From NCBI GenBank assembly GCA_019357535.2, contig CP079955.1:1984001-2048000 (forward strand): DNA of 64,000 bases, given 5' to 3'. The position numbers and the translations under genes are program-made. The notes below the pieces were generated by a model that had not been told where the DNA came from, did no database searches, and saw only the letters and a list, made by a program, of their open reading frames with translations. The stretch is from Macrococcus sp. 19Msa1099. GTDB taxonomy: Bacteria; Bacillota; Bacilli; Staphylococcales; Staphylococcaceae. Shown here in pieces: positions 7,908 through 35,703 of the stretch. Positions within the stretch are counted from its first letter, which is position 1. Each line of letters opens with the position of its first letter.

Positions 7908-8050
7908 ATTAAGATTTTCGTGCTTTTCTAATAAGAGTATTAAAAAAGCACTTTTCACCCATGGCAAAAAGTGCTTGAAATGTTCAAGTCAAATTTCACC
8001 TCGGTAGGATTATTAAGCTTAACGCCCCTACTGTCTTAGGTTATTTATAA
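7908..8050 (-). ncRNA. L10 leader (autoregulatory mRNA element)
   Basis: The long leader between the promoter and rplJ carries a stem made by CAGTAGGGGCG and AATCCTACCGAGG with unpaired purines, resembling the kink-turn target of L10(L12)4. An intrinsic terminator follows at 7941-7976. A later stretch, AAAAGCACG (around 7919-7927), repeats part of the terminator arm and may take part in alternative pairing. Position and layout match the Firmicute L10 leader family; the individual pairings are my reading. Confidence 0.8.
7941..7976 (-). terminator. Attenuator terminator inside the L10 leader
   Basis: A 10-bp stem (7946-7955 with 7967-7976) followed by six U on the minus strand, ahead of rplJ. 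Its position before the gene makes it an attenuator rather than an operon end. Confidence 0.85.
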
Positions 8051-8062
8051 AATACAAATTAC

Positions 8063-20248: not shown

Positions 20249-22672
20249 TTATGCTTTTGCTTTATCAATTTTAAATGCATCATCCACATAATCTATAGTA
20301 ATGTGATGTCCAGTTAATTCTTCACCCTTTAATAGTTCTTCAGATAACTGATCTTCAATATGTTTTTGAATTGCTCTAGCAAGTGGTCTTGCTCCGTACT
20401 CAGGATCATAGCCTTCATCTGCGATTTTCTCTTTCGCTGCATCTGTCAATGAAATATGGATATCTTGCTCTTTCAGTCTGTTTGCAAGCCCTTCGACCAT
20501 TAATGTCACAATTTCTTTCAATTGATCTTTCTCCAATTTATGGAATACGATGATATCATCAATTCTGTTTAAAAACTCAGGGCGGAATTGTTTCTTAAGC
20601 TCATCCATCATCGTTTTACGGATTGTTTCATAATCCTGAGCTGCAGTCTGCCCCCCGAACCCAACAAATTTATTATCTTTAATTTCTTGAGCTCCGACGT
20701 TACTCGTCATAATAATAACCGTATTTCTGAAATCTACCGTACGACCTTTCGAATCTGTAAGACGCCCATCATCGAGTACTTGTAACAGAATGTTAAAGAC
20801 ATCTGGATGTGCTTTTTCTATTTCGTCAAATAAGATAACTGAATAAGGTTTACGACGTACCTTTTCTGTTAATTGACCGCCATCATCATGACCTACATAT
20901 CCTGGAGGAGAACCTACCATACGTGAGACGCTATGTTTCTCCATAAACTCACTCATATCTACGCGAATCATCGCATCCTCTTCACCAAACATTGCCTCAG
21001 CTAGTGCTTTCGCAAGTTCTGTTTTACCTACACCAGTAGGTCCTAAGAAGATAAAGCTCCCAATCGGACGTTTCGGATCTTTAAGACCAGCACGTGCACG
21101 ACGCACAGCTTTAGAAATAGATGATACGGCATCAGCTTGACCAATGACACGATTATGCAAGATTTCTTCCAGGTTCAATAGCTTTTGTGATTCAGTTTCT
21201 GCAATTTTAGCAATCGGAATACCTGTCCATTGCGCTACAACATTGGCAATGTCATCTGCAGTTACTGAAGTATTGTTTGAACCTTGTGTTTTTTGCCATT
21301 CTTTTTTAGTTTCTTCTAACTTTTTCTCAAGCTGTGTCTGTTTATCACGTAAACTTGCTGCCTGTTCGAACTCTTGAGAATGTACTGCAGCGTCTTTTTC
21401 ATTCTTCACTTTTTCTAATTCCGCTTCAAGCTCTTTTAAGCTTGGCGGTGTTGTATAATTGCGTAAGCGTACTTTAGAACCTGCTTCATCGATTAAGTCT
21501 ATCGCTTTATCTGGTAAGAAGCGATCTGATATATAACGATCACTCATCTTAACTGCAGCTACAAGTGCTTCATCAGAAATCTTAATTCTGTGATGTGCTT
21601 CATAACGGTCACGCAACCCTTTTAATATTTCTATTGCATCTTCTACATTCGGCTGATCCACTTGAACAGGTTGGAATCGACGTTCAAGTGCTGCATCTTT
21701 CTCTATATATTTACGGTACTCTTCCAATGTTGTCGCACCAATACATTGTAACTCACCACGTGCAAGTGCAGGCTTTAATATGTTAGAAGCATCGATTGCA
21801 CCTTCTGCACCTCCAGCTCCAATTAAAGTGTGTAATTCATCGATGAATAAGATAATATTACCTGCCTGATGAATTTCTTCCATCACTTTCTTAAGACGCT
21901 CTTCGAATTCGCCTCGATATTTAGTACCAGCAACAACAGTACCCATATCTAAACTCATTACACGTTTTCCTTTTAATGTTTCTGGCACTTCATTATTGAT
22001 AATTGCTTGTGCTAATCCTTCTACAATCGCCGTTTTACCTACACCCGGTTCCCCAATAAGCACAGGATTATTTTTTGTACGACGACTCAACACTTCAATA
22101 ACACGCGTAATTTCAGCACTACGCCCAATCACTGGATCTAGTGTGCCATCTTTTGCAATGACTGTTAGATCGCGCGCAAGTTCATCAAGTGTCGGTGTAT
22201 TTTGTGATTTTGAAGCATTCGTATCTTTGCCTGTCATCTCAGGACTACCAAGTAACTTCACCACTTGAGATCTTGCTTTTGTAATGTTTAAGTCAAGATT
22301 CGCTAGTACGCGTGCTGCAACTCCTTCATTTTCACGGATTAAACCAAGTAGAATATGCTCTGTCCCTACAAAGTTATGATTTAATTTACGTGCTTCATCA
22401 AGTGATAATTCGATGACCTTCTTAGCGCGTGGTGTATATTGTATTGTGCCACCCATGTCTGTACCATGACCGATAAGTTGTTCTACTTCAGATACAACTT
22501 TATCTTCTGTGATATTGTAAGCCGCTAAGACTTTTGCAGCGATACCATCAGGCTCTTTTACAAGACCCAACAATAAATGTTCTGTTCCAATGTTGTTGTG
22601 ATTTAAACGAATCGCTTCTTCTTGTGCATGTGCAAGTACTCTTTGAGCACGTTCTGTTAATCTACCAAACAA
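20249..22672 (-). CDS. clpC: ATP-dependent Clp protease ATP-binding subunit ClpC
   Basis: 807 residues, Hsp100 unfoldase partner of ClpP. Double Clp N-domain (1-145), first AAA+ module with Walker A GEPGVGKT at 207-214, coiled middle domain with a UVR-like segment (about 410-465) that binds adaptors, second AAA+ module with GPTGVGKT near 540, and a VGFG loop for docking on ClpP. Start is TTG ([10 protein letters not shown]) with AAGGAGG eight bases upstream. Last gene of ctsR-mcsA-mcsB-clpC, so under CtsR control. Confidence 0.98.
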
Positions 22673-22684
22673 TATAATTCCTCC

Positions 22685-23689
22685 TTATAGATGCGTTCGT
22701 AGCATCTCTGCTCTTTTTTCTTCTATTGTGCCTTGTGTATCATATACGGTATCTAAAAACGGTGCTTGAATTGCTACCATAAGTTCGTTAAACCTAAACG
22801 GAATATTGATGATATCCATATCAATTCCAAGCTTTACTTCACTTAGACGAAGGCTTGCTTCTTCTACTGAAATCTTACGGCTGTATTTCAAAATACCTAA
22901 ACTACGATAAATTCTATCAATAGTTTCAATATGATCGTAATTATTCATTCGTTTGCGCATATTGAGTTCTTCCTCAATAATCTGTTCGACAACTTGCTGA
23001 AGATCTTCAATAATACTTTCTTCATCTTTACCGAGTGTCAACTGATTAGATACTTGGTATATATGACCTAATGCTTGTGTCCCTTCTCCATATATACCAC
23101 GAATCGTAAAACCAAAACGATTGATAGCTTGAGCGATTCGATTCATACGATTCATAATAGAAAGTCCTGGTAAATGGAGCATTACACTAGCACGTAGACC
23201 TGTTCCTATATTAGTAGGACATGTCGTTAAATATCCATAATGCTCGTCAAAGGCCATTGTTAACTTTTCATCTAACCGCTTATCAATATCTTGAGCACGC
23301 ATATATAACTTCTGAAGAGATAAATCTTTACCGAGCACTTGTATTCTGATATGATCTTCCTCATTTACCATAATGCTCTCTGATTCATCATCGTTAATAT
23401 AGACGGCACCACCGTTATTATCCAATAATTCTTTACTCATCAAATGCTTTGCGACAAGCATTAAGCGCTCTCGTTCAGATATTTTGCTCATCTTTATTTC
23501 TTCATAATCATGAAGCACACTCCCCACCGCTTCAATAACACGTTCTGCATCTCCCTCACTAAACATCATCGGATGCACAAAATCTTCTAAGTTACGCGCC
23601 AATCTGATTCTAGAACTCAAGATGACCGGTTCATCTTTACCACTTTGCATCCAGTCGCTAAGTTCACTTTGAAGGTGTTTACTCAACAT
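22685..23689 (-). CDS. mcsB: Protein-arginine kinase McsB
   Basis: 334 residues. Phosphagen-kinase fold turned protein-arginine kinase: [13 protein letters not shown] (near residues 25-37), the catalytic [16 protein letters not shown] near 155-170 and IRGIYGEG near 205. It marks misfolded proteins and CtsR for ClpC-ClpP. Start ATG at 23689 ([13 protein letters not shown]) preceded by a GGTGGTG site inside the mcsA end; the genes overlap by 11 bases. Confidence 0.96.
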
Positions 23690-24065
23690 GAGTATCACCA
23701 CCTTCCTTTAATACTTTTATTTCGTCTCTTACATTTACAGCTTCTTCAAAGTTTTGTACTTCTATTAATTGCTGTAGTTGTTCTTCCAGTGCTTCAATAC
23801 GCTTTTTAAGTGCAATCTTTTCTTGAGACTTAAAAGGTTGCTGTCCGACATGTTCCAGATTACCTGCTTGAACTCTCTCTATTACTTGAGGGACATATTG
23901 ACTAAATGCGTCGTAACATTCACTACAACCAAACTTGCCGATATGCAACGCCTCTCTTAGCGAAAGACCACAGTTAGGACATTTATCAGGATGTGTTTGA
24001 AATTCTCCGCTATTAAGTAAATGTTTCAATAGCTGATTCATCGAAAATTCTTCTTCATAAGCCAT
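23679..24065 (-). CDS. mcsA: McsA, McsB activator, N-terminally shortened form
   Basis: 128 residues, against about 180-190 in staphylococci and Bacillus. It keeps the second zinc site (CPNCG at about 28-32, CSECY at about 49-53), the [16 protein letters not shown] signature and the C-terminal UVR/coiled-coil segment ([15 protein letters not shown]). The N-terminal zinc-binding domain with its own two CxxC pairs is absent. It has not merely been missed: ctsR ends only 10 bases upstream, and the ATG at 24065 has AGGAGG at good spacing. The activating function may be kept through the remaining domain. Confidence 0.93.
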
Positions 24066-24075
24066 ACTGTACCTC

Positions 24076-24537
24076 CTAGTTGTATTGGATGATTGCAAGT
24101 ACATTTTGTAATATATTCGCTCTAATATAATCACGGTACGGTACTTCCATCCTTAAAGTATCTCTGTGAATCGTTGACATGATCAACTTCTTCTCTCTTA
24201 ATGTAATCAATTCGTTATCATATAGACCCGCAATAATGCGCTCAGCGTTTTGCTGGGAAATCTGCTTACTTGTAAGCTCTTTAAGATGATTTAAAAAAGC
24301 TGACTTATCGTTTGATTCAATCTTTGTAATACGGATATAGCCACCGCCACCACGTTTACTTTCGATTTGATAACCATGTTCATTTGTAAACCTTGTTTTA
24401 ATGACATAATTTAACTGTGAAGGTACACAATCAAACTTCTCTGCAATATGGGCACGCTTAATTTCCACGACGTCATCTGTCGCTTCTTCAAGCAGTTGCT
24501 TTAAATATTGTTCAATTATATCCGACATATTGTGCAT
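24076..24537 (-). CDS. ctsR: CtsR, class III stress gene repressor
   Basis: 153 residues. N-terminal winged helix-turn-helix ([13 protein letters not shown] to about 70) with the glycine-rich wing [11 protein letters not shown] that senses heat, then the dimerisation domain. Represses clp genes by binding heptad repeats; McsB phosphorylates its arginines. Start ATG at 24537 (MHNMSDI), matching S. aureus, with an AGGTGGGTG site upstream. A CtsR operator sits between its promoter and start, so the operon is autoregulated. Confidence 0.96.
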
Positions 24538-24550
24538 GACATCACCCACC

Positions 24551-24567
24551 TTTGACCTTCTTTGACT
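24551..24567 (-). promoter_or_regulatory. CtsR operator
   Basis: AGTCAAA GAA GGTCAAA on the minus strand: the tandem heptad repeat with three-base spacing that CtsR recognises. It lies just downstream of the ctsR -10 box, ideally placed to block transcription. Confidence 0.9.
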
Positions 24568-29728: not shown

Positions 29729-29856
29729 TATATATTGCCCGGCAACGTCCTACTCTCGCGGATCGTAAGACCAACTACCATCGGCGCTAGAGAGCTTAAC
29801 TTCTGTGTTCGGTATGGGAACAGGTGTGACCTCTCTGCCATCGTCACCAGACAAAT
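29729..29856 (-). repeat. 128-base exact duplication containing 5S (copy 1; copy 2 at 35581-35708)
   Basis: The two copies are identical over 128 bases, covering the whole 5S gene plus 5 to 8 flanking bases on each side. Sequence diverges immediately outside. Confidence 0.9.
29737..29851 (-). rRNA. rrf: 5S ribosomal RNA (distal copy)
   Basis: 115 bases, starting TCTGGTGACG and ending GTTGCCGGGC on the minus strand, with the conserved CACCTGTTCCCATACCGAA loop. Closes the 16S-Ile-23S-5S operon. Confidence 0.96.
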
Positions 29857-29881
29857 GAAAGAATAAATAGTTTATACTTTC

Positions 29882-32994
<3,113 letters not shown>

Positions 32995-33011
32995 CAAAGT
33001 ACAATATTTAA

Positions 33012-33088
<77 letters not shown>

Positions 33089-33125
33089 ATTATTAATTTG
33101 AATGTATAAACATTCAAAACTGAAT

Positions 33126-34833
<1,708 letters not shown>

Positions 34834-34867
34834 CATTCAGTTTTCAATGTTCATTTTTAAATAATAA

Positions 34868-34943
34868 TGGTGGAGACTAGCGGGATCGAACCGCTGACCT
34901 CCTGCGTGCAAAGCAGGCGCTCTCCCAGCTGAGCTAAGCCCCC
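34868..34943 (-). tRNA. tRNA-Ala (TGC)
   Basis: 76 bases, anticodon loop TTTGCAC, CCA encoded. The acceptor GGGGGCT/AGTCTCC holds two G-U pairs. Last of the eight tRNAs before 16S. Confidence 0.96.
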
Positions 34944-34955
34944 ATATTAAGTAAG

Positions 34956-35029
34956 TCGGGAAGACAGGATTCGAACCTGCGACCCCTTGGTCCCAAACCA
35001 AGTGCTCTACCAAGCTGAGCTACTTCCCG
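34956..35029 (-). tRNA. tRNA-Pro (TGG)
   Basis: 74 bases, acceptor CGGGAAG/CTTCCCG, anticodon loop TTTGGGA. The gene is followed by CTT, so CCA must be added after transcription. Confidence 0.95.
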
Positions 35030-35042
35030 TAGCTAATAATAA

Positions 35043-35119
35043 TGGCGCGCCCGAGAGGAGTCGAACCCCTAACCTTTTGATCCGTAGTCAAACGCTCTAT
35101 CCAATTGAGCTACGGGCGC
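35043..35119 (-). tRNA. tRNA-Arg (ACG)
   Basis: 77 bases, acceptor GCGCCCG/CGGGCGC, anticodon loop CTACGGA (ACG, expected to be read as ICG after TadA editing), CCA encoded. Confidence 0.95.
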
Positions 35120-35136
35120 ATATTATAAAAATTAAA

Positions 35137-35225
35137 TGGTGCCGAGGACCGGAATCGAACCGGTACGGTAATCACTTACCGCAGGATTTTAAGTCCTGTG
35201 CGTCTGCCAGTTCCGCCACCCCGGC
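35137..35225 (-). tRNA. tRNA-Leu (TAA)
   Basis: 89 bases with a long variable arm (GGTAAGTGATTACC), anticodon loop CTTAAAA, CCA encoded. Confidence 0.95.
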
Positions 35226-35240
35226 ATTTAATTTCTCCAA

Positions 35241-35315
35241 TGGAGCGAAAGACGGGATTCGAACCCGCGACCCCAACCTTGGCAAGGTTGTATTCTACCA
35301 CTGAACTACTTTCGC
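35241..35315 (-). tRNA. tRNA-Gly (GCC)
   Basis: 75 bases, acceptor GCGAAAG/CTTTCGC, anticodon loop TTGCCAA, CCA encoded. Confidence 0.95.
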
Positions 35316-35335
35316 GCACTTATTAAAAATAATTA

Positions 35336-35408
35336 TGAGCCATAGAGGATTCGAACCTCTGACCCTTTGATTAAAAGTCAAATGCTCTACCAACTGAGCT
35401 AATGGCTC
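35336..35408 (-). tRNA. tRNA-Lys (TTT)
   Basis: 73 bases, acceptor GAGCCAT/ATGGCTC, anticodon loop CTTTTAA. CCA is not encoded. Confidence 0.95.
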
Positions 35409-35413
35409 AAAAA

Positions 35414-35489
<76 letters not shown>

Positions 35490-35500
35490 GTAATATTAAA

Positions 35501-35576
35501 TGGTGGAGGATGACGGGCTCGAACCGCCGACCCTCTGCTTGTAAGGCAGATGCTCTCCCAGCTGAGCTAATCCTCC
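35501..35576 (-). tRNA. tRNA-Val (TAC)
   Basis: 76 bases, acceptor GGAGGAT/ATCCTCC, anticodon loop CTTACAA, CCA encoded. First of the tRNA series after the extra 5S gene. Confidence 0.95.
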
Positions 35577-35588
35577 TGGGTATATATT

Positions 35589-35703
35589 GCCCGGCAACGT
35601 CCTACTCTCGCGGATCGTAAGACCAACTACCATCGGCGCTAGAGAGCTTAACTTCTGTGTTCGGTATGGGAACAGGTGTGACCTCTCTGCCATCGTCACC
35701 AGA
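35589..35703 (-). rRNA. rrf: 5S ribosomal RNA (extra proximal copy)
   Basis: 115 bases identical to the 5S at 29737-29851. It stands alone, without 16S or 23S before it, and opens the transcript that continues through eight tRNAs into the complete operon. Three promoters lie directly upstream. Staphylococcal genomes often hold one more 5S than 16S genes, as I recall. Confidence 0.95.

Follow-up and report, generated by a model that had tools for sequence, protein, structure and literature searches.

A short McsA that has lost its first zinc finger in Macrococcus, a recurrent variant in Staphylococcaceae

The ctsR-mcsA-mcsB-clpC locus of Macrococcus sp. 19Msa1099

The window, the whole stretch of 64,000 nucleotides, carries on its minus strand the genes ctsR, mcsA, mcsB and clpC in the order of the clpC operon. 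In low-GC Gram-positives, protein arginine phosphorylation marks damaged proteins for ClpCP. A perfect CtsR operator (RGTCAAA-N3-RGTCAAA) lies on the minus strand at 24551-24567, matched once in the window and 0 times in 100 shuffles, and is followed by the repressor gene ctsR (24076-24549, minus strand; PF05848 and PF17727), the start of which may be the ATG at 24537. By eye, the 10-base spacer between the ctsR stop and the mcsA ATG (24066-24075) contains an AGGAGG ribosome site. mcsA itself (23679-24065, minus strand) encodes 128 amino acids plus a stop. The protein arginine kinase gene mcsB (22685-23689, minus strand), identified by NF002193, PF00217 and alignment to S. aureus McsB, encodes 334 amino acids from its ATG; its open frame spans 22685-23701, and from the ATG it overlaps mcsA by 11 bases. 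clpC (20249-22672, minus strand) was assigned by its Clp/AAA+ Pfam families.

The kinase scored 577 bits against NF002193, for which the cut-off is 471. In a hand-counted alignment with S. aureus McsB (8gqd_D) it retains the active-site Cys157, within GYLTTCPTN, as well as Arg262, Arg271 and Glu277 of the interface, while Tyr replaces Phe261 and Phe replaces Tyr147; the roles of these residues are those given in PMC12467219. The genome also holds two low-molecular-weight phosphatase genes, one of which may encode the arginine phosphatase YwlE. Elsewhere in the window are an L10 leader (7933-8058) and, on the minus strand, an rRNA operon that includes nine tRNA genes and an additional 5S gene (29737-35703), about 4 kb upstream of pdxST-like genes.

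The translated mcsA frame contains a single CxxC-14-CxxC set, CPNC and CSEC, at residues 29-50. By alignment this is the second zinc finger of McsA (23916-23981, minus strand), which includes the GKFGC motif and matches solved McsA chains. It is preceded by a conserved linker helix (codons 5-22; 24000-24053, minus strand), which forms the present N-terminus and is kept across the short forms, and is followed by the UVR motif of the C-terminal coiled coil (codons 87-121; 23703-23807, minus strand; PF02151, E=1.3e-9). The first zinc finger (ZF1), which stands at the N-terminus of other McsA proteins, is absent. Consistent with this, the NCBIfam McsA profile NF053706 (182 positions) aligns over positions 46-172 only, with about 45 N-terminal positions missing. 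The score, 109.8 bits, falls below the curated cut-off of 210 bits; this cut-off is non-discriminating in Staphylococcales, since it was reached by 0 of 157 genomes of the order, full-length McsA included (89 of 170 genomes of a class-wide sample reached it). The predicted structure of the protein is weak (mean pLDDT 69, pTM 0.35), with helices at residues 78-102 and 106-125 and a low-confidence helix at 9-18 (pLDDT ∼47-59).

Since a missing domain could be an artefact of assembly or annotation, with ZF1 lying upstream or in another frame, the surrounding sequence and related genomes were inspected. The mcsA frame does remain open for 29 codons further upstream, into ctsR, which is the one point found in favour of an artefact, but these codons contain no CxxC, and thus no hidden ZF1. 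Short mcsA was present in 9/9 genomes of the same genus, which excludes a sequencing error, and the same form recurred in independently named assemblies; these replicate genomes refute the artefact, which we regard as extremely improbable. The initial annotation had described a 128-residue protein with one CxxC set, a UVR segment and no hidden extension, and both the frame and the start of the NF053706 match at position 46 bear this out.

The genome was also searched for a relocated ZF1 with a profile (A1) built from 10 sequences and 43 positions long. No copy was found with this profile, the best match being a chance-level partial one (E=5.1, positions 23-35 of 43). Across Staphylococcales A1 matched 97 of 157 genomes, namely 96 with ZF1 in McsA and one ZF1-less genome (G092) in which the match is partial, chance-like (E=0.0056) and crosses a stop, so that A1 results agreed with direct reading within the order. 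On distant sequences false negatives are possible, since A1 missed 8/8 genomes of genus g29 in family f19, three of which carry ZF1 when read directly.

Distribution and loss of the first finger

The ctsR-mcsA-mcsB region was read in all 142 McsA-bearing Staphylococcales genomes of the collection, ZF1 being scored as present where two CxxC lie ahead of the second finger. The second finger, CxxC-14-CxxC, was found in all 142, whereas 96 have ZF1 and 46 do not. Those without it comprise the Macrococcus-type genomes (g1, 9/9; g2, 6/6; g4, 1/1), the single genome of family f2 and 29 of the 84 genomes of the Staphylococcus-type genus g5. ZF1 was present in the Mammaliicoccus-type genomes (g3, 8/8), in family f4 (33/33) and in the other 55 g5 genomes. 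A McsA of 125-130 aa without ZF1 in 16/16 Macrococcus-type genomes confirms that no sequencing error is involved. A scan of named genomes agreed: among the best 80 loci, ZF1 was absent from 13/13 Macrococcus/Macrococcoides loci and from nine Staphylococcus loci (S. simulans (2), S. agnetis, S. microti, S. canis, S. intermedius, S. pseudintermedius, S. rostri and S. cornubiensis), and present in 3 Mammaliicoccus, 30 other Staphylococcus and 25 other Bacilli loci.

Two kinds of ZF1-less McsA were apparent within the family. In the Macrococcus type the N-terminal region is deleted and the protein starts at the linker helix. In two groups of Staphylococcus, which we take to correspond to the hyicus-intermedius and simulans-carnosus groups, a cysteine-free tail of similar length remains and the proteins are 168-191 aa long. 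This tail is fast-changing: its mean pairwise identity is 0.41 in one group (21 genomes) and 0.54 in the other (8 genomes), compared with 0.71 for the N-terminal region in the 55 g5 genomes with ZF1, and the linker helix and second finger of the two ZF1-less groups stand at 0.85-0.94. A fourth, distant McsA without ZF1 occurs in the family f2 genome (G108, locus L073), which sits on a very long branch (2.21) for CtsR/McsB, so that its placement is unsure.

Four changes in the ZF1 trait are needed on a tree of 102 genomes built from CtsR+McsB, and three (bootstrap range 3-4) on a more careful tree of 50 genomes, from which the f2 genome was left out; well-supported branches alone force just two. 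A single clade of all ZF1-less sequences was rejected (AU p=4e-5), and one shared loss for the two Staphylococcus groups was moderately rejected (AU p=0.026). The changes were read as losses because almost every outgroup has ZF1, and the trees would need three of these within the family, plus the one distant genome.

Outside the order, ZF1 loss was seen in 0 of 136 McsA-bearing genomes checked. These came from an evenly drawn class sample of 170 genomes, 156 of them outside Staphylococcales. The McsA profile aligned from position 1 or 2 in 129 (counted by hand), all of which also match A1 in some form, although for a small number of them a ClpE-type protein may account for the best match. In family f19 the profile match begins only at positions 73-78, and these genomes were considered as further losses; this was rejected, since both upstream CxxC pairs, with a short linker, are present in all seven of the 12 f19 genomes that were read directly. 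The other 20 genomes are five unread f19 genomes and 15 with weak matches only, taken as being without McsA. The f19 proteins (L267-L273), with both fingers and a very short linker between them, represent another architecture variant.

Taken together these findings indicate that the domain loss is real and fixed, that other lineages share it, and that the short protein is a recurring form of one already known. The statement that staphylococcal McsA carries an additional N-terminal CxxC set holds for 55 of the 84 g5 genomes and fails for 29, and the loss is lineage-wide in the Macrococcus type but extends beyond it to the two Staphylococcus groups. Since ZF1 is typical in the order (96/142) yet not universal, the Macrococcus protein is a variant of McsA and not a standard member. 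In the literature searched, no paper joining Macrococcus with McsA, no relevant paper joining McsA with pseudintermedius and no paper on the McsA first finger were found; the repeated loss may come as a mild surprise to the specialist.

Selection on the short gene and the role of the retained finger

The ratio dN/dS for mcsA was 0.03-0.08 in seven of eight Macrococcus-type genome pairs, similar to mcsB and ctsR; the values are rough, the eighth pair being saturated and dS exceeding 0.8 in five of the other seven. These ratios point to strong purifying selection on the short gene. Family f3 (G109-G123) illustrates what decay could lead to, since McsA matches are absent from 15/15 of its genomes in Staphylococcales, bar two weak ones (E ∼4e-4), and the short form might be a step toward the same full loss. 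Such decay is very unlikely for Macrococcus, where the low dN/dS is joined by a frame intact in 16/16 genomes, a conserved second finger and UVR motif, and an intact operon and operator; the operator is present in 46/46 ZF1-less loci. An uncontrolled comparison of McsB columns gave five weak ones that two ZF1-less groups have in common and that are seldom seen where ZF1 is present, and no clear signature of compensation.

What the loss means for the pathway depends on what each finger does. According to PMC7235348, the second finger mediates the McsA-McsB interaction and is oxidised under thiol stress, the latter citing Elsholz et al. 2011. For the S. aureus complex 8GQD, PMC12467219 describes a C-terminal finger that binds zinc through Cys87, 90, 105 and 108 and acts on the Tyr147-Tyr153 loop of McsB, and in PMC12387690 McsA binds the kinase domain by way of its second zinc domain and the loop that follows it. 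Excerpts of PMC5506225 describe a redox switch and leave the finger unassigned, and PMC12634643 summarises the pathway. The initial annotation had linked the absent N-terminal CxxC motifs with activation of McsB and with metal or thiol stress sensing; PMC7235348, PMC12467219 and PMC12387690 place binding and activation of McsB and the oxidation under thiol stress in the second finger, and in the passages cited they explain McsA through that finger only. The domain loss on which it had based an altered stress input is real; the altered input itself does not follow as argued, because these functions sit, according to the same papers, in the second finger, which is retained with the right spacing.

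From this we infer that the Macrococcus protein is a working, naturally minimal activator of McsB that has lost an accessory domain, a reading to which we give a probability of about 0.75. A deletion of some 50 codons would have removed ZF1 before the Macrococcus-type genera diverged, leaving the linker helix, second zinc finger and UVR coiled coil. The short McsA would most likely still bind and activate McsB via the second finger, and could still release it upon thiol oxidation. The lost finger, a homologue of the one at the N-terminus of ClpE, would be an accessory module and would probably tune assembly of the McsA-McsB complex rather than decide whether McsB switches on. Since the finger that switches on the partner kinase has been kept, the stress pathway has probably been trimmed rather than broken, and, judging by what is known of the second finger, stress sensing is probably less affected than first proposed; altered assembly or tuning of the complex is possible.

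It is also conceivable, although we consider it unlikely, that loss of ZF1 does change the stress input, either by abolishing metal or thiol sensing or by weakening stimulation of McsB. Four conserved cysteines are gone, and a domain kept in 96 of 142 genomes of the order, as well as in those checked outside it, has some function. An earlier study of S. aureus is reported to have found that McsA binds several metals, and a 2024 PNAS paper on McsAB reportedly assigns to the first zinc domain, together with the coiled coil, a further activation of McsB through reassembly of the oligomer; were this so, Macrococcus would lack part of the activation. Such a change is disfavoured by the cited papers, which locate binding and activation of McsB as well as thiol oxidation in the second finger, and by the lack of a clear compensating signature in McsB. 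The minimal activator is therefore preferred. More tentatively, ZF1 could be a separable module, its repeated loss in Staphylococcaceae recording natural changes in how the arginine kinase holoenzyme is assembled; arginine phosphorylation in these lineages would then run on an activator with a single finger, which would correspond to the proteolysed crystal core and be uncoupled from any ZF1 partner. In either case, repeated loss of ZF1 with the rest of the protein under strong selection amounts to a natural experiment on ZF1 function, and the McsA architecture of S. aureus should not be assumed for all staphylococci, S. pseudintermedius being an example.

Comparison with ClpE and with solved McsA complexes

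With the A1 profile, solved McsA gives a match at E=4.1e-7 and the N-terminus of ClpE a weaker one at E=0.0015. The zinc finger of ClpE (29hb) is thus homologous to the lost McsA finger; unlike ZF1 of McsA, it sits on an AAA+ unfoldase. In A1 searches no ClpE-type finger was found in the Macrococcus genome or in the rest of its family. Within Staphylococcales such fingers were confined to 28 of 33 f4 genomes, each of which also carries ZF1 in its McsA, and occurred in 0 of 46 ZF1-less genomes. Absence of ClpE was considered as a predictor of ZF1 loss and rejected, since many genomes keep ZF1 with no detected ClpE-type finger: five of f4 (g12 and g13), eight of the Mammaliicoccus type and 55 of g5. 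A functional link between the ClpE finger and ZF1 is, on this pattern of occurrence, only a thought.

The closest known systems are McsA of S. aureus (8gqd) and of the 8wtb/8wtc complexes. The solved complexes contain about 100 ordered residues (Foldseek targets of 99-100) of a 187-residue McsA, and their chains (8wtb_B, residues 80-175; 8gqd_E, 59 residues) match precisely the part retained in Macrococcus, from which we conclude that the short protein resembles the ordered core of these structures. In Foldseek the predicted model matched over 95 columns, weakly (8wtc_B, TM just 0.37, rmsd 9.7). The Macrococcus protein shares with these systems its place between ctsR and mcsB-clpC, the linker helix, the second finger, the loop and the UVR coiled coil, and differs in lacking ZF1 (profile positions 1-45). 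McsA of the eight Staphylococcus species named above, S. intermedius, S. pseudintermedius and S. simulans among them, likewise lacks the first CxxC pairs, but there the cysteine-free, fast-changing tail persists, whereas in the Macrococcus type the region has been deleted altogether.
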